Of a stretch of 30,512 nt of DNA, positions 7,277 to 25,869 are shown piece by piece (positions within the stretch are counted from its first letter, which is position 1; each line of letters begins with the position of its first letter). Below the pieces are notes generated by a model. The model did not search any database and was not told the origin of the DNA. It saw nothing but the letters and a program-made list of their open reading frames with translations. A program made the translations under genes and the position numbers. The stretch is from a virus. Where the stretch lies: positions 1 through 30,512 of IMG/VR virus record IMGVR_UViG_3300021474_000024; one strand, written 5' to 3'.

Positions 7277-8571
7277 TCCAACCCGACGAGACCGTCGTCC
7301 TCCCCTATAAGCCGCGTCCCCATTTTCGCCCGGTGCACGATAGCCCGAAGCGGTGGAAGTTCGTCGTCGCCCACCGGCGCGCCGGGAAGACCGTCGCGCT
7401 GGTGAACCAGCTCATTCGCGCCGCGCTCGGCAACCCCCGGGTCACCCCGCCGCCAAGATACGCCTACATCGGCCCCTCGTTCGACCAGACCAAGGACCTC
7501 TGCTGGGCTTATCTGAAGGAGTTCACTGCCAATGTCCCGGGCATTTCCTACCTCGAAGGCGAGCTTACCGTCCGCTTCCCCCGCGGCGCCACCATCCGTC
7601 TCTACGGCGGGGCCCTGGCTTATGAGCGGATGCGCGGGATCTACCTGGATGGAGCGGTCCTCGATGAATATCCCTTACTTGCCCCGCGGGCCTTCACCTC
7701 GGTGGTTCGACCTTGCCTTGCAGACTACCGCGGATTTGCGATTGTGTCGGGCACCTCCGCTGGCGATGATCACTTCCATCAGCTGATGGTCCGCAGCGAA
7801 GGCGATCCTGGCTGGGACATCTTCGACATCAAGATCACCGACACCGGCTCCGACGCGCTCTCTCCCGACGAGGTCGAGGAGATGCGCCAGGATATGTCTC
7901 CGGACGAGTTCGCCCGCGAGATGCTGAACAGCTTCGACGCGCCGGTCGAGGGCGCGTATTACGTCGAGCAGCTGAACATCTTGCAGCAGCAGAACCGGGT
8001 GTGCAAAGTCAGCCCGGACCTCTCTACGGGCGTGATCACGTCCTGGGATCTCGGCATGCGCCATCTCCAGGTGATCTGGAGCTTTCAGGTCGCGGGACGG
8101 GAGATCCACTGGATCGATTACATCGAGGGCCGCGGCAAGAACCTCTCCTATTACGCCGAGCTGCTCGCCCTGAAGGCCCAGACCCACGGCTATTCCTACC
8201 GCGCCCACCTCTTGCCGCACGACGTCGAGGTGCGCGAACTCTCCACCGGCAAGAGCCGCCGCCATGAACTCACCAGCCTGCTCAGCGAGCCGATCATCAC
8301 CGTGCCCAACCATTCGACCGAGGACGGCATCTCGGCCTCCAGGGGGATCCTCGGAATAAGCTGGTTCGACGAGAGCGCCACCCGCAAGGGCCTCGCCCGG
8401 CTGCGCTCTTACCGACGCGGCAAAAGCGGCGCGGCAGTGCCCGATGAGGCCGAAGACGCAGCCGACGCCTTCCGCACCGGCTGCGTCGGTCTTCCCCTCA
8501 TCGCTGGCGGATCTCTCTCCAGCGGTCTTGCCGGTCAGCGCCTCCGTCGTCGGCTTAGGGGCCTCGTCTGA
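7273..8571 (+). CDS. terL: Terminase large subunit
   Basis: 432-aa protein starting at ATG 7273-7275, coupled to the 34-codon ORF; an upstream in-frame extension to 7189 reads as Arg/His-rich noise. The ATPase domain has Walker A VAHRRAGKT (about 32-40), Walker B YLDGAVLDEYP (about 123-133, Asp then Glu) and a coupling motif VSGTSAG. The C-terminal RNase H-like nuclease shows the expected acidic residues: SWDLG (about 256-260), HDVEV (about 315) and DAADAFRTG (about 394). The enzyme cuts concatemeric DNA and pumps it into the prohead through the portal. The length is typical of the shorter TerL group found in podovirus-like phages. Confidence 0.95.
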   Translation: MIQPDETVVLPYKPRPHFRPVHDSPKRWKFVVAHRRAGKTVALVNQLIRAALGNPRVTPPPRYAYIGPSFDQTKDLCWAYLKEFTANVPGISYLEGELTVRFPRGATIRLYGGALAYERMRGIYLDGAVLDEYPLLAPRAFTSVVRPCLADYRGFAIVSGTSAGDDHFHQLMVRSEGDPGWDIFDIKITDTGSDALSPDEVEEMRQDMSPDEFAREMLNSFDAPVEGAYYVEQLNILQQQNRVCKVSPDLSTGVITSWDLGMRHLQVIWSFQVAGREIHWIDYIEGRGKNLSYYAELLALKAQTHGYSYRAHLLPHDVEVRELSTGKSRRHELTSLLSEPIITVPNHSTEDGISASRGILGISWFDESATRKGLARLRSYRRGKSGAAVPDEAEDAADAFRTGCVGLPLIAGGSLSSGLAGQRLRRRLRGLV

Positions 8572-16127: not shown

Positions 16128-16306
16128 GCCCGCTCGGCATCGTTCTGATCATCGTGCTCGTGCTCGTGCTGTTCGGCGGCGTTGGAGGCCCGCGCTTCGG
16201 CGCGCCCTGGCAGTACGGCTATGGCTACGGGACCGGCGGCGTCGGGGTGATCGGCACGCTGCTCGTCATTCTCGTGATCCTCTGGCTGCTCGGGGTGCTC
16301 CGATGA
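16124..16306 (+). CDS. DUF3309-like small membrane protein
   Basis: 60-aa protein, ATG 16124-16126 overlapping the previous stop (ATGA). MSPLGIVLIIVLVLVLFGGV, then GAPWQYGYGYGTGGVG and VIGTLLVILVILWLLGVLR, shows two hydrophobic segments joined by a Gly/Tyr-rich loop. This is the DUF3309 layout, a family of tiny membrane proteins common in Hyphomicrobiales and other proteobacteria. Its place directly after the holin candidate suggests a lysis accessory (antiholin- or spanin-like) role, but DUF3309 function is unknown. It may have been captured from a host. Confidence 0.7.
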   Translation: MSPLGIVLIIVLVLVLFGGVGGPRFGAPWQYGYGYGTGGVGVIGTLLVILVILWLLGVLR

Positions 16307-16935
16307 GCGACTACGACACTCTTTGTGCGGCGATCGCCGAATGGGCGAACCGCGCCGATTGGAGCCCGACGCTCCTCGCCCAGTTCGTCGCCATGGCTGA
16401 GCAAAAATTTAACGCTGAGCTTCGGGTAGATAGGATGATCACCCAGGCGTCGAATGTCGTCACCCTGCGCTGTGCTGAATTGCCGGACGATTGGCTGGAG
16501 ATGGAGTTCGTTGCGGTCGCCAACGGCAACACCCCGAACGGCTGGATGCCGATTCGCTACAAGGCGCGCGACCAATTCTTCCATCAGCCTGACAAATTGA
16601 CCTATGGCTTTTATACGCTTGAAGGTCGGATGATCACCTTCGGCGGTCCGCCGGACGACGTTGAGGGGGTGCCCTATCAGATCTGGTACTTCCAGGAAGT
16701 GCCGGTGATGGCGACCACCGGCAGCTCTTGGATCTACACCAAATATCCGCGGCTCTATCTCATGGCCGCGTTGATGAATGCGGATCTGCACGCCCAGGGC
16801 GAGGAGCAGGTGGCGCTGCTGATCGGCGCTCAGGTCGATCAGATGATCGGCAAGCTCAACGATAACTATCGGCTGTCGAAGGCGAGCGGCTCGCGCCTCA
16901 AGCGGACGCGCATCAGGACGTCAACTTTCGGGTGA
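16303..16935 (+). CDS. Head-tail adaptor protein, SU10-like
   Basis: 210-aa protein, ATG 16303-16305 overlapping the previous stop (ATGA). It starts MSDYDTLCAAIAEWANRADW and continues FVAMAEQKFNAELRVDRMI and LPDDWLEMEFVAV, with the YPRLYLMAALMNADLHAQGE helix near the C-terminus. This is the phage adaptor pattern 'y..L...i..wlnr.D......fi..aE..inr.LR...m......LP.dwle...i...g' known from SU10-like and related podoviruses. Adaptor rings bind below the portal and carry the tail. The C-terminus is basic (SRLKRTRIRTSTFG). An upstream in-frame extension to 16033 overlaps two genes and is rejected. Confidence 0.8.
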   Translation: MSDYDTLCAAIAEWANRADWSPTLLAQFVAMAEQKFNAELRVDRMITQASNVVTLRCAELPDDWLEMEFVAVANGNTPNGWMPIRYKARDQFFHQPDKLTYGFYTLEGRMITFGGPPDDVEGVPYQIWYFQEVPVMATTGSSWIYTKYPRLYLMAALMNADLHAQGEEQVALLIGAQVDQMIGKLNDNYRLSKASGSRLKRTRIRTSTFG

Positions 16936-16940
16936 GGATC

Positions 16941-17165
16941 ATGTGGAAATTGGCTTTTCTGCTTTTTCTGGGCGCGACGCCCGCGTGGGGTCAGGCGCGG
17001 GTGGTGAGCGCTTGCGGCACCGCGAACTATAGCGCCTCGATCGGCACGCTGCAGAATCTGACTATGAACACTTCGGGGTATTTGTGCGCGACGACTACCG
17101 CGACGGTGGTCGAGAAGGGCGCGCCGCAGCGTCAGCAGCAAGAGCAACAGGAACCACGGAAGTGA
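16941..17165 (+). CDS. Small signal-peptide protein, tail region
   Basis: 74-aa protein, ATG 16941-16943 preceded by GAGG; a GTG at 16932 overlapping the adaptor stop is an alternative. MWKLAFLLFLGATPAWGQA is a good Sec signal peptide with likely cleavage after AWG-QA. The mature part, VVSACGTANYSASIGTLQNL then TMNTSGYLCATTT, shares the 'L..LTM(N/D)T.G.LCA' module with the next protein. The C-terminus is Gln/Glu-rich. This is unusual for a gene within the tail cluster and would place the product in the periplasm or outside the cell before lysis. Confidence 0.6.
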   Translation: MWKLAFLLFLGATPAWGQARVVSACGTANYSASIGTLQNLTMNTSGYLCATTTATVVEKGAPQRQQQEQQEPRK

Positions 17166-18556
17166 AGCGGCTTCTTCTCGCCCTCCTGCTGTCGACCTCG
17201 GCAGCGCACGCGCAGAGCCTGTCCAAGGCGCTGGTGGTGCCGACATGCACGCCGGGCCGGGAGCTGGAGCAGGCGGGTCCGGGTCTTCAGCAGCTGACGA
17301 TGGATACCCAGGGGCGGCTCTGTGCTGCGGCGACCAATGCAGGCAGCACCAATATGGTGACGCCGCTGATGGTCAACACTATTGCGATACCCTTGGCTGT
17401 CACGACCTATGGCATCAATTTCTTTGGTGCAAATTGGAATGTGCCAACATTGAGGGGCGCTCCGACTCCGATTGCTGGTACAGTTTCTGGTCTTACTGTT
17501 CATAATCAGACTGCAGTTGCGACTAGCTATTTTTTGATTGCTCTTAGCGTTAATGGAGTGGCGACAGCTCTGCAGTGCAGCATCGGCGTAGGCAGTGGTC
17601 CTAATCTTGGAACTCCGACAGGATGCACGGATCGAACTGATAGTATTGATGTTCATGCCGGTGATATATTGGCATGGCAGTCGACTGTGCCGGGTGGACT
17701 GCCGACGACGCCTGGGGCAATGTCAATTTCTGGGTTGTTTACTAGCCAGAATGGTCAGGAAAGCTTGCTCGGCAGCGCCACCAACAATTTTATCTCAGTA
17801 ACAGGAATTACGTATATTGGTCCAAGTGGTCAAGCGGGTTATGTCAATGAGTATCAAGCATCGGTCATCATGCCGACCAATGGTGTAATTGATCATTTGA
17901 ATGTTTCACTTGGTGGCGTTCCGACAACTTATAGTGTTCAATTTACGGTGTTTAAGAATGGCGCGCCGACCGGCATCATCGCTCTCTGCAACAGTACGAC
18001 TGGTGCAAAATGCACCGATTTGACCCATGCGATCAGCGTCGCGCCTGAAGATACAATTTCAGTGCAGATTTGTCCAAGTAATGTCGCCGGATGTCCGGCT
18101 GGAGCAGCTGTTCCTAATATAACGATGTCGTTTGGGTTGCGGTGGCAACATGAAATAGCTGATGAAGCATTAGTGTTTAATGGATCTTTCAACAATTCTT
18201 CGACAACCAATTATGCGCCGATCGCTGGAGGGTATGGGGCCAATCCAAGCGAAGCATTCTTTCAAAATCCTGCGCCAATTGCAATGACTTTGGGTAATCT
18301 TCTTGCCGCGCAATGTCCTGATATCAGCGCAACAACGTCTAGAACGGTGACGTTGCGCAGCAACGGGGTTAGTCTAGCGCCGACAGTGATCATGCCCACC
18401 GGCACTGGCGTTTGTCCATCATTGACGATAGCGCCGCAGGACACGATCCACACCGCTCAAGTCACCACCGATCAGCTGTTGAATTTCTTGACGGTGCCAA
18501 CCGGGGGCGGACAGAACCCTCTCTTCAAGACCTCGATGACGGCGACGGTGCCGTGA
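17162..18556 (+). CDS. 464-aa signal-peptide protein with three repeated domains
   Basis: GTG start at 17162-17164 overlapping the previous TGA (GTGA), chosen over upstream in-frame codons because it begins a clean signal peptide, MKRLLLALLLSTSAAHAQS. A short module with 'LQQLTMDTQGRLCAAAT' follows. After that, three domains of about 120 residues repeat a beta pattern: ALSVNGVATALQCSIG ... CTDRTDSIDVHAGDI (about 70-200), FTVFKNGAPTGIIALCNS ... CTDLTHAISVAPEDTIS (about 208-345), and VTLRSNGVSLAPTVI ... CPSLTIAPQDTIH (about 346-464). The 'v.kNG..t.......g...c.D.t.si.v..gDtis' form is known from jelly-roll-like domains in phage tail and host-surface proteins. Probably a tail decoration or receptor-contact protein. 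The middle is AT-rich relative to neighbours. Confidence 0.65.
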   Translation: MKRLLLALLLSTSAAHAQSLSKALVVPTCTPGRELEQAGPGLQQLTMDTQGRLCAAATNAGSTNMVTPLMVNTIAIPLAVTTYGINFFGANWNVPTLRGAPTPIAGTVSGLTVHNQTAVATSYFLIALSVNGVATALQCSIGVGSGPNLGTPTGCTDRTDSIDVHAGDILAWQSTVPGGLPTTPGAMSISGLFTSQNGQESLLGSATNNFISVTGITYIGPSGQAGYVNEYQASVIMPTNGVIDHLNVSLGGVPTTYSVQFTVFKNGAPTGIIALCNSTTGAKCTDLTHAISVAPEDTISVQICPSNVAGCPAGAAVPNITMSFGLRWQHEIADEALVFNGSFNNSSTTNYAPIAGGYGANPSEAFFQNPAPIAMTLGNLLAAQCPDISATTSRTVTLRSNGVSLAPTVIMPTGTGVCPSLTIAPQDTIHTAQVTTDQLLNFLTVPTGGGQNPLFKTSMTATVP

Positions 18557-21030
18557 CCGATTCCTGGACCCCAGGGCCTGCGCCGTCGAACGGCTGGACC
18601 CCGGGGCCTCCTCCTGCGCCCGCGCCGCCGATCGCGCCCGAGCTGCCCCTGGCCGACCAATGGAATCCGGAGGCCGGGTGCCTGTCGAGCGGCTGCACCC
18701 TCTCGGTGGTCGGCAACATCATCCTGAACTGTGCCGAGGGCGCCAGCATCAGCTACGCCGCCAACGGCTCTTTGATCTGGTCATTGGCGCTCAATGACGG
18801 CTCTAGCCCGCCGAACGTGGCCTTGCAGCAATGGGCGGGCGGCGAGCTGGTATCGACGCCGCTCGAAGTTTCAGGGACGGACGGCAGCGTCTGGTTCAAC
18901 ACCCCGGTGACGCTCGCTGCGGATCCAACGACGGCGATGGGGGCGGCGACCAAGGATTACGTCGATAACCACAGCGGCGGCATCCCTGAAGCGCCGATGG
19001 ATAACTACACCTATGCTCGGTATATGGCGACCTGGGAGCGCCTGCCGCAAACTTACATTCCGGAAGCGCCGAACACCGGCCAGCGATTCGGCCGGTTCAA
19101 TTCGATTTGGCAGCTCGACGCGATTCAGGTCGACGCGCCGGATAGCAACAACTACGTGCGCCAGAACGGCGCCTGGACGGCGGCGGCCTACCTTCCGCTG
19201 GCTGGCGGCACCATCACCGGCAGTCTGACCGTCAATCAGGTGCTGACGGTGCAGGGGCCGAACAGCTTGGTGCTGAACGCCCCTCTCAACAATCCTCGCG
19301 CTATTCTGTGCTCGGCCTCCAACGTCATGCGTTGGGTGCTGAATCTGGGTGACGGAACCACCGAGGGGTTGAACAATCTCGGGGCGAATTTCAGTCTCCA
19401 GGCTTATTCTACGACCGGCGCGCCTCTCGGGACGTGGCTGACCATCGCGCGCGCGGATGGCTCCACGACTTTCAATGGCTCCGGCGTCACCATTGCGGGA
19501 GGTCTGGCGGTCAACGGGCTGCTCGCCCTTGCTGATTTGACCCATCTGGCGATCTACGGCGGCGCGGCCGGGCAAGTCCTTTCGACTAACGGTTCGGGGA
19601 TCCTGTACTGGGCCAATCCCGGCAGCGGCGGGGGCGGCGGCGGAATCGACGATGCGCCGATCGACGGCACCTCCTACGCGCGCAAGAGCGCCGCGTGGGT
19701 CCATCTGACCCACAACGACATCACCGATTGGGCGACCAGCGTTCCGCTTCCCTCCTCGACCCCGCCCGTGATGGACGGGACTGCGGCGCCGGGCGTCGCG
19801 ACGACCTTCTCGCGCGGCGATCACGTCCACCCTACCGACACCAGCCGCGCGGCGGCTTCGGCCCTGGCGAGCTATGTGCCGCTGGCTGGCGGGTCGATGA
19901 CTGGCACGCTGTTTCTTCCCTACGACCCGATCGTTCCGCTGGCGGCGGCGACCAAGCAGTATGTCGACGCCCACGCGGGCGGCATCGGCGAAGCTCCGAC
20001 CGATGGTCAGCTTTACAGCCGCCAGAATAGCGCCTGGACGCCAACCGTTGTTCCGCTTGGTGACAACCGTATCATCAACGGCGACATGCGGATCGACCAA
20101 AGAAACAACGGCGCGGCTGGAACAGGGATAGGCGTCTATACGGTTGATCGTTGGTTTTATGGAACCAATGTTGCTGGCAATATATTGAATTGGGGGCGAA
20201 ATTATAATGGAGGGTCAAATACGGCACAATTTGTTGCTGCAGGATTTCCTTATAATTTGGGATTTCAGGTTTTTCAAGCTCGCACTCTAGTTGCAGCCGA
20301 TTATTTCGCACTTTATCAGCCAATTGAAGCTGATATGATCGGTGACTTTGCTTGGGGAACGACGAACGCGCGGCCTGTGACTTTGTCATTCTGGGTGCTG
20401 TCAAATCAAATTGGAATGTTCAGCGGATCACTTCGTAACTATGCTGGAACGCGCTCATATCCGTTCACTTTCAATATTCCGACCGGGGGAGTGGCAACGA
20501 GGATTGTTGTCAATATTCCGGGCGACACCACCGGGACTTGGGTGATGAGCGGCCCGGGCGGCGCGCTCCACGTGATTTTCGACCTTGGTTCGGGCGCGAA
20601 TTTTCGCGGAGCGGCGGGCGCGTGGACGACGGGCAATCTTGTCGGCGTGACCGGAGCGGTTAGTCTGGTAGCGACGATCGGCCTGATTTTCAGCATCAGT
20701 GGGATCAAGCTGGAGGTTGGCAATATTGCCACGCCCTTCAATCGGCAGTCGATGGCGAAGACTTTGGCCGATTGTCAGCGGTATTATCAGAGTTTTTCTC
20801 ATACATTTAATTGTTGGCAGGGAGCTGGCGCGTTTTTTTATGGAGCAGAGACCTATCCACAAGTTATGCGCGCCTCGCCAACCGCGGCAGTTTCTGGTCA
20901 ATCATACACAAATTCATCTGCTTATACTGTATCAAATTTGGCTACGAATAATTTTTTGGCGTACGCAACAGCGACTTCTCTTGGTTATGCTTATGCGAGT
21001 GCAGTCGTAACATTAACTGCGGAGATTTGA
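18553..21030 (+). CDS. Tail fibre / receptor-binding protein, 825 aa
   Basis: GTG start at 18553-18555 overlapping the previous stop (GTGA). Residues 1-45 are Pro/Trp-rich (SWTPGPAPSNGWTPGPPPAP). The shaft has 'YLPLAGGTITGSLTV' and 'VPLAGGSMTGTLFL', two 'AATK.YVD.H.GG' units and five 'EAP.dg..Y.R...aW' repeats, all common in phage fibres. From about residue 505 (NRIINGDMRIDQRNN) a different C-terminal module begins, with PVTLSFWVLSNQIGMFSG, ISGIKLEVGNIATPF and DCQRYYQSF. These landmarks are shared with many fibre tips and are expected to bind cell-surface sugars. GC falls to about 40% in parts of the tip (20160-20280), against about 68% in the shaft, which suggests a swapped module. Confidence 0.8.
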   Translation: MTDSWTPGPAPSNGWTPGPPPAPAPPIAPELPLADQWNPEAGCLSSGCTLSVVGNIILNCAEGASISYAANGSLIWSLALNDGSSPPNVALQQWAGGELVSTPLEVSGTDGSVWFNTPVTLAADPTTAMGAATKDYVDNHSGGIPEAPMDNYTYARYMATWERLPQTYIPEAPNTGQRFGRFNSIWQLDAIQVDAPDSNNYVRQNGAWTAAAYLPLAGGTITGSLTVNQVLTVQGPNSLVLNAPLNNPRAILCSASNVMRWVLNLGDGTTEGLNNLGANFSLQAYSTTGAPLGTWLTIARADGSTTFNGSGVTIAGGLAVNGLLALADLTHLAIYGGAAGQVLSTNGSGILYWANPGSGGGGGGIDDAPIDGTSYARKSAAWVHLTHNDITDWATSVPLPSSTPPVMDGTAAPGVATTFSRGDHVHPTDTSRAAASALASYVPLAGGSMTGTLFLPYDPIVPLAAATKQYVDAHAGGIGEAPTDGQLYSRQNSAWTPTVVPLGDNRIINGDMRIDQRNNGAAGTGIGVYTVDRWFYGTNVAGNILNWGRNYNGGSNTAQFVAAGFPYNLGFQVFQARTLVAADYFALYQPIEADMIGDFAWGTTNARPVTLSFWVLSNQIGMFSGSLRNYAGTRSYPFTFNIPTGGVATRIVVNIPGDTTGTWVMSGPGGALHVIFDLGSGANFRGAAGAWTTGNLVGVTGAVSLVATIGLIFSISGIKLEVGNIATPFNRQSMAKTLADCQRYYQSFSHTFNCWQGAGAFFYGAETYPQVMRASPTAAVSGQSYTNSSAYTVSNLATNNFLAYATATSLGYAYASAVVTLTAEI

Positions 21031-24477: not shown

Positions 24478-25869
24478 ATGAGCGGCTCGACAGACACCAC
24501 TTCGAACACCAACAGCTCCTCGGAATCGGTCAACCAGATCCCGCAGTGGGTCCAAAACGCCGGTCAGGCCAATTATGGCCTCGCTCAACAAGTGGCTTCG
24601 CAGCCTTTACAGCAATATCAAGGACAAATGGTCGCCGATGTCGCGCCTCAAACCCAGCAGGCGTGGAACATGGCGGCCAACAGCGGCTCGGTCGGTCAGC
24701 CCGCGCAGAACGCCGCCCAGGCGGGCTACCTTAACACGATGGCCCAGGCCCCGGGGCAGATCAACCCGGCGCAGCTGTCAGATACCAATTTAAGTCCGTA
24801 TATGAATCCTTACACCCAATCGGTTATCAACAGCACTATTCCGTTGATGCAGCAGTCGAACGCGCTGCAGCAAAATCAGGTTCAGGACCAAGCCGCTTCG
24901 GCTAACGCCTTCGGCGGTTCGCGCCAGGGGATCCAACAAGGCGTCGCCCAGGCGCAAGGCGCCTTGAATATCGGCCAGATGGCGGCCGGGCTCAATCAAG
25001 CCAACTTCGGGCAGGCCCAGACGGCGGCTCAGTCCGACGTCGCGGCGCAGAATACCGCGGCGGCGCAGAACCAAGCGGCCGGGCTCAGTCAGGAAGGGCT
25101 GGTCAATCAGGCGGCGCAGGGGCTTGGCAACCTCGGCAGCCAGCAGATGCAGAACAACCTCGCCAATTTTGGCATGCTGAGCGCGGCCGGGGGTCAGCAG
25201 CAGCAACAGCAGCAAAACGACATCAACGCTCAGATGGCCAAGTTCCAGCAGGCGTTCAGCTACCCGCAGAGCCAGCTCGGGATTATGGAATCCTCGCTCG
25301 GCATGACGCCCTACAACACCGCGACCTCGGGCTCGTCGGCGTCGAGCACCGACACCACTCAGACCCAGTCGAACCCCTTCGGCGCCGCGACCTCGGGCAT
25401 GCAGATGCTCGGCTCGCTGTTCAGCGGCGGCGCGAACAGCGCGATGTCGGGGCTCACCAGTTTCCTTGGCGGCTCCGATCGCAGGCTCAAGACCGACATC
25501 AAGAAGGTCGGCAAGCACCCGACTGGCGTCGGCATCTACTCCTATCGATACAAGGGTGACCCAAAGACGTACCCCAAGGTCGTCGGTCCGATGGCCGAGG
25601 ACGTGATGAAGATCGCGCCGCACGCGGTCCGGCCGATGACCACCAAGGGTCATCTCGCCGTCCATATGCCGACCCTCGACGCGCTCTCGACGCCGCCGTC
25701 TTCGCCCGGCGTCGCCAAGGCGATCGGCATGCTCGGCCGCGGGACGCCGGGCAAGCTGTCGCCGAACGCCACCCCGCCGACGCAGCCGATCGGCGTCGGC
25801 CGAGGCGCGCTGGCGCGCGCCCCCACCCGGCGGATCAACGCCCCCATCGTTGGAGCGCTCGGTGCCTAA
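24478..25869 (+). CDS. Virion protein with S74 auto-processing chaperone domain
   Basis: 463-aa protein; ATG 24478-24480 directly follows the previous TAG. Residues 1-330 are Ala/Gln/Asn/Ser-rich helices (QPLQQYQGQMVADVAPQTQQ) with a seven-Gln tract at about 240-246. At about 333-400, SDRRLKTDIKKVG, then GVGIYSYRYKGD, PMAEDVMKIAPHAV and GHLAVHMPTLDAL, form a peptidase S74 (intramolecular chaperone) domain with the Ser-Asp...Lys dyad S333/K338. S74 domains trimerise the preceding stalk and cut themselves off. Here about 60 further Pro/Ala-rich residues follow the domain. It opens the ejection module. Confidence 0.8.
   Translation: MSGSTDTTSNTNSSSESVNQIPQWVQNAGQANYGLAQQVASQPLQQYQGQMVADVAPQTQQAWNMAANSGSVGQPAQNAAQAGYLNTMAQAPGQINPAQLSDTNLSPYMNPYTQSVINSTIPLMQQSNALQQNQVQDQAASANAFGGSRQGIQQGVAQAQGALNIGQMAAGLNQANFGQAQTAAQSDVAAQNTAAAQNQAAGLSQEGLVNQAAQGLGNLGSQQMQNNLANFGMLSAAGGQQQQQQQNDINAQMAKFQQAFSYPQSQLGIMESSLGMTPYNTATSGSSASSTDTTQTQSNPFGAATSGMQMLGSLFSGGANSAMSGLTSFLGGSDRRLKTDIKKVGKHPTGVGIYSYRYKGDPKTYPKVVGPMAEDVMKIAPHAVRPMTTKGHLAVHMPTLDALSTPPSSPGVAKAIGMLGRGTPGKLSPNATPPTQPIGVGRGALARAPTRRINAPIVGALGA

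Follow-up and report, generated by a model that had tools for sequence, protein, structure and literature searches.

The virion parts of tailed phages are assumed to be synthesised and put together in the cytoplasm. Why, then, do two adjacent genes in the tail region of a short-tailed phage encode proteins that begin with Sec signal peptides? The genes, here called ORF1 and ORF2, belong to a 30,512-base IMG/VR virus record (the whole stretch analysed, hereafter the window) of an SU10-type podovirus, whose capsid, portal and adaptor were recognised with Pfam SU10_MCP, SU10_portal and SU10_adaptor. A preliminary description of this DNA had assigned the two frames to a tail cluster and, on the premise that virion proteins need no export, had proposed that they may be displayed or secreted, or may act in superinfection exclusion or in changing the host surface. 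Both frames are present, and their place in a tail cluster is borne out, since they lie between an SU10-type adaptor gene and a tail-fibre gene without a signal peptide (Table 1).

Table 1. Features of the ORF1/ORF2 locus and its neighbours, in window positions
Feature	Position	Strand	Remarks
SU10-type head-tail adaptor gene	16303..16935	+	Pfam SU10_adaptor (PF24175) 7.5e-20; PHROG virion structural protein; upstream neighbour
ORF1	16932..17165	+	signal peptide, cysteine module and hydrophilic Q/E/K tail; relatives in 7 IMG/VR contigs
ORF1 signal peptide MWKLAFLLFLGATPAWG	16941..16991	+	predicted cleavage before QA; rule-based call
ORF1 cysteine module QARVVSACG...LTMNTSGYLCA	16992..17090	+	two invariant cysteines
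ORF2	17162..18556	+	464 aa from a GTG that overlaps the ORF1 stop as GTGA
ORF2 signal peptide MKRLLLALLLSTSAAHA	17162..17212	+	predicted cleavage before QS; rule-based call
ORF2 cysteine module KALVVPTC...LQQLTMDTQGRLCAAAT	17225..17332	+	
ORF2 domain D1, C1q-like repeat	17450..17764	+	cysteine pair C139/C155; homology to D2
ORF2 domain D2, C1q-like jelly roll	17852..18148	+	C276/C284 and C304/C311; AlphaFold2, fold searches
ORF2 C-terminal domain D3	18158..18553	+	C385/C418; weak likeness to D1/D2
ORF2 swapped-allele region	17400..18500	+	56-70% DNA identity to L009; flanks 86-99%
Tail fibre gene without signal peptide	18553..21030	+	PHROG tail fiber 6.1e-42; Pfam Fibritin_C 1.2e-9; GTGA overlap with ORF2 stop

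Only the starts needed revision. ORF2 begins at the GTG at 17162, read as initiator methionine and overlapping the ORF1 stop; ORF1, which has 74 residues from the ATG at 16941, may instead begin at the GTG at 16932, because this codon forms a GTGA overlap with the adaptor stop. The longer protein of 77 residues would begin MRIMWKLAFLL... and so have one more arginine in its n-region. Since such stop/start overlaps at 16932, 17162 and 18553 join adaptor, ORF1, ORF2 and fibre, translation of all four is probably coupled. Elsewhere in the window, a match to a DNA-ejection-protein family (24478-25869) also carries a Peptidase_S74 intramolecular chaperone domain, which is unusual outside fibres and spikes.

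Signal peptides were called with a rule of our own, not with SignalP, that asks for a basic n-region, an uncharged h-region and small residues at -3 and -1; shuffled proteins passed it in 86 and 97 of 20,000 trials (about 0.5%). Among the 46 predicted genes of the window only ORF1 and ORF2 were positive, and cleavage sites could be marked in both. The leaders have the typical n-h-c design, with A.A or A.G before the cleavage site and Q at +1, and are conserved in relatives, which were found in seven IMG/VR contigs, all of the same phage type, with leader and module maintained; in the ORF1 group A.G at -3/-1 and Q at +1 are preserved. Over residues 2-29 of ORF2, comparison with the relatives L004, L009 and L002 gave no non-synonymous and five to eight synonymous changes (the misaligned L006 rows and L005 module row were left out of these counts), which indicates that the ORF2 signal peptide is under purifying selection.

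The cysteine module said to be common to the two proteins is also real. The mature N-terminal parts of ORF1 and ORF2 align with a score of 59, whereas none of 5,000 shuffles exceeded 52, and both module cysteines are invariant in relatives. A profile of the module had no match in 297 genomes of one bacterial order, a search without positive control that shows little. In the related phage L093 the module also stands behind a twin-arginine-like leader (MRRRDILGG; 7692-8492), in a protein with a SPRY-like region that was recognised by eye and has no Pfam match, and in this form the module may be exported by Tat as well. The first module cysteine of ORF1, in VVSAC, resembles a lipobox, and ORF1 is small, as would suit an outer-membrane lipoprotein or a spanin-like lysis protein; however, a charged stretch lies between the h-region and this lipobox-like sequence, whose cysteine is conserved jointly with the second one, and we regard such a function as extremely improbable. 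Lipoproteins and o-spanins were rejected because the lipobox is not kept, the corresponding residues being VPTC in ORF2, LPAC in ORF1 of L002, LSTC in L093 (7692-8492) and VTTC in L106 (2012-3643).

Even cysteine numbers are preferred in exported bacterial proteins (PMC7678975). Mature ORF1 has two cysteines and mature ORF2 ten, and ten are found in every complete relative of the ORF2 group. At 80 loci with related, SU10-type adaptors, all 18 distinct complete proteins with signal peptides have even, non-zero counts, at 2.0 cysteines per 100 residues, while among the other downstream genes 52 are even, 104 odd and 43 without cysteine, at 0.76 per 100 residues. The difference in parity reaches 1.7e-8 in Fisher's test at the level of proteins, which are not independent, and p 0.03 at the level of families (nine even versus two odd and one mixed group). 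Odd exceptions occur among relatives added later, namely L109_e with 19 cysteines, L093_r1 with three and L072_r3 with five.

Genes for proteins with a signal peptide and no other membrane helix cluster near the adaptor at these 80 loci, mostly just downstream of it: they account for 26 of the 291 genes between +1 and +6, for 5 of 342 between -5 and -1 and for 0 of 141 at -6 and beyond. Their distribution is that of accessory genes. Most relatives have none at the ORF1/ORF2 locus. By our rule no signal-peptide protein was found in the nearest cultured relative by capsid (62%), Ochrobactrum phage vB_OspP_OH, and none of three prophage relatives, from Enterovirga, Plastoroseomonas and Caulobacteraceae, has a convincing one. 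Several loci also encode, close to the adaptor, members of a family of signal-peptide proteins of about 120 residues with two cysteines, near the N- and C-terminus (L034 2431-2817, L070 5381, L072 5748, L086 818). As far as export is concerned, the earlier interpretation gains from selection on the leader, from the even and conserved cysteines and from the clustering at this locus, and we consider export of ORF1 and ORF2 very likely.

What the exported proteins might do was approached through ORF2, in which the signal peptide and cysteine module are followed by a pair of C1q-like repeats and one further domain. Neither protein has a significant match in Pfam, PHROGs, PDB sequences or cultured phages. 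D1 and D2 are repeats of each other (E 2.5e-7). An AlphaFold2 model of D2, built with 14 repeat sequences, is all-beta (pLDDT 83.8, pTM 0.74); the full-length protein with six relatives reached a pLDDT of 38, so that only the D2 model was used. In Foldseek searches its best PDB neighbours were C1q heads, at a weak E of 6.9e-3, with the phi812 spike and fibres of Agrobacterium phage 7-7-1 at lower rank, and among viral models collagen-like proteins (5.4e-6) and the fibre of Synechococcus phage S-CAM7 (1.6e-3) were found. D2 is confidently modelled as an all-beta domain, probably a jelly roll of C1q type, and its likeness to C1q heads and to domains of phage fibres has moderate scores. Outside its own group ORF2 has relatives in L038 (9520-10890) and in two proteins of L106, all with signal peptides.

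The evolution of ORF2 points in the direction of host recognition. Compared with L009, the window shows 99.7-100% identity in capsid, scaffold and adaptor and 95% in ORF1, against 55% in ORF2, inside which the DNA identity drops to 56-70%. In L006 the reverse is seen, identity being 72-80% for capsid, portal and adaptor and as high as 97% across residues 1-150 of ORF2. These opposite patterns show that ORF2 alleles are exchanged between phages, and allele exchange is typical of host-recognition genes and receptor-binding proteins. It is likely, on our estimate, that ORF1 and ORF2 act as an adhesin binding the host surface.

The relatives with signal peptides give the clearest indication of the class of proteins concerned. 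L038 r2, which has a signal peptide, and fibres without one have a shaft module in common (L041, E 2e-20), and L032 r2, a near-identical truncated copy of L038 r2, matches the window's own fibre (E 2e-10). A profile of the domain behind the leader, built only from signal-peptide proteins (L038/L072/L077), finds L029 r2, which lacks a signal peptide (E 5.5e-13) and begins MQNPSPGALGLV, while the signal-peptide form begins QTPSPGQLGLV after its leader, the first residues of L029 r2 thus matching the mature N-terminus. A homologue that begins exactly where the leader would be removed argues against leaders that serve as hydrophobic anchors in virions assembled in the cytoplasm; such anchors would agree with the location among virion genes, but considering also that the leaders are of typical design, A.A or A.G preceding the cleavage site and Q following it, and the parity and density of cysteines, we judge them very unlikely.

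In 26 of 33 records the interval from the adaptor to g609 holds a protein of 586-931 residues without signal peptide. In L038/L113 and in L072 it holds a short stub and signal-peptide proteins of 285-1415 residues (the largest having 1415 residues in L038/L113 and 988 in L072) and no long fibre of the usual kind, so that the signal-peptide proteins appear to replace it. Stand-alone short proteins without signal peptide, similar to the N-terminus of long fibres, were also seen (L038 7624-8235, L072 7738-8268, L029 3312-3614, L056 6953-7258, L025 3088-3366), and several such loci have a separate spike-like gene for the distal protein. Six consecutive large signal-peptide proteins (432-1432 residues) are encoded in a P22-type podovirus (L106 2012-9581, with a P22-type portal at 2.1e-156; L109 206-8388), whose contigs reach no further than the coat gene. 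The glycine-rich protein of L106 (Gly_rich_2) has a relative without signal peptide in L093 (E 1.7e-27). In one protein of the L106/L109 series a glycine-rich domain is joined to a long region at the C-terminus, and a short frame with a signal-like leader follows the six genes (L115 near 8780).

L093 also encodes, next to the gene with the twin-arginine-like leader and downstream of it, a protein in which signal peptide and cysteine module are combined with a carbohydrate-esterase domain (SASA 4.8e-10). This protein, together with the C1q-like fold in ORF2, would agree with secreted soluble proteins that bind or cut glycans and open the polysaccharide for progeny while not being mounted on tails. 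However, the N-terminal domain of the spike-like signal-peptide proteins also starts a tail-locus protein without signal peptide, and would be superfluous in a free enzyme if it binds the particle; moreover, Sec alone delivers only to the periplasm. Soluble proteins of this kind therefore seem to us rather improbable.

A stronger competitor is a function outside the virion, in which exported factors in the periplasm or at the surface would block superinfection or alter the surface. Lom, which carries a signal at its N-terminus, is encoded between tail genes of lambda (PMC12309495), and the T4 Spackle protein gp61.3 has a cleaved signal peptide of 22 residues and a Cys29-Cys81 disulfide (PMC7650644); ORF1 and ORF2 could be borne by a tail operon like the former or be periplasmic like the latter, which is similar in size to ORF1. 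The accessory distribution of the genes fits as well, and the window phage retains an ordinary fibre without signal peptide and a collar gene, so that ORF1 and ORF2 need not be virion parts. The normal fibre and these two precedents help to keep a non-virion function in consideration. On the other hand, the related signal-peptide proteins reach 1415 residues and stand three to six in a row, have modules in common with tail proteins lacking signal peptides and, in two records, stand in place of the long fibre, and neither ORF1 nor ORF2 matches Ail_Lom or another membrane-protein family in Pfam. We hold a non-virion factor to be unlikely.

On balance we slightly favour the view that ORF1 and ORF2 belong to the host-recognition, tail-fibre-type repertoire and are exported by Sec and disulfide-bonded. 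The fibre-like relatives with signal peptides and the replacement of the fibre in L038/L113 and L072 suggest that they may be host-recognition proteins and not superinfection-exclusion or host-modifying factors, and the premise that virion proteins need no export becomes doubtful, because signal peptides of relatives precede long proteins that share shaft or N-terminal modules with tail proteins lacking them. Late in infection the host Sec machinery would move both proteins into the periplasm, where signal peptidase would cleave before QA in ORF1 and QS in ORF2 and the paired cysteines would be oxidised in vivo to disulfides. ORF2 would be an adhesin with tandem C1q-like jelly-roll domains behind the small cysteine module that it has in common with ORF1, and at lysis the mature proteins would exit together with the progeny. 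Their likeliest fate is, as a conjecture, attachment to tails or to host glycans. A link to the particle is made more plausible by the relatives of fibre type, but we identified no particle-binding residue or partner, and that the two proteins are part of the infectious particle is possible at somewhat less than an even chance.

We know of no tailed-phage fibre that undergoes Sec export before assembly, and found no report of Sec signals on such fibres in the open literature, which is weak evidence. The signal peptides that relatives carry before tail-fibre-type proteins suggest that in some phages a share of the host-recognition proteins may be exported through the cell envelope, these proteins then not being produced wholly in the cytoplasm. 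More tentatively, a group of short-tailed phages, of SU10 and P22 type, might export fibres, spikes and accessory adhesins by Sec, fold them in the periplasm with disulfides and join them to tails only after lysis; tail maturation would then take place partly in the cytoplasm and partly in the periplasm. Should working Sec signals be present on the fibre-type proteins of entire phage groups, there would be two alternatives: periplasmic maturation of some fibres, with mounting once the cell has lysed, or secretion by phages of adhesins and enzymes that are related to their own fibres. Either outcome would change the annotation of tail genes and the laboratory production of receptor-binding proteins, for which oxidising folding would matter.

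Among known systems, Lom is similar to ORF1 and ORF2 as a protein with signal peptide encoded among tail genes; however it is an outer-membrane beta-barrel, while neither ORF1 nor ORF2 matches such a family and D2 is modelled as a jelly roll. Spackle is likewise a small phage protein with a cleaved signal peptide and one disulfide, but it binds the gp5 lysozyme domain, whereas ORF1 consists of the module and a hydrophilic tail, is in an operon with ORF2 and has no family match. C1q/TNF-like domains, as in cerebellins, adiponectin, collagen-like viral proteins and the S-CAM7 fibre, have the fold of D2 according to AlphaFold2 and Foldseek; ORF2 differs in that its domains stand in tandem within a single chain, in its conserved cysteine pairs and in having no sequence-family match. 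From podovirus fibres and tailspikes, of the P22 gp9 or SU10 type, ORF1 and ORF2 differ in their Sec signal peptides and disulfide-type cysteine pattern, but the likeness extends to the locus beside the adaptor, modular shafts, exchangeable tips and allele swapping, and some relatives with signal peptides have shaft or N-terminal modules in common with tail proteins that lack them.
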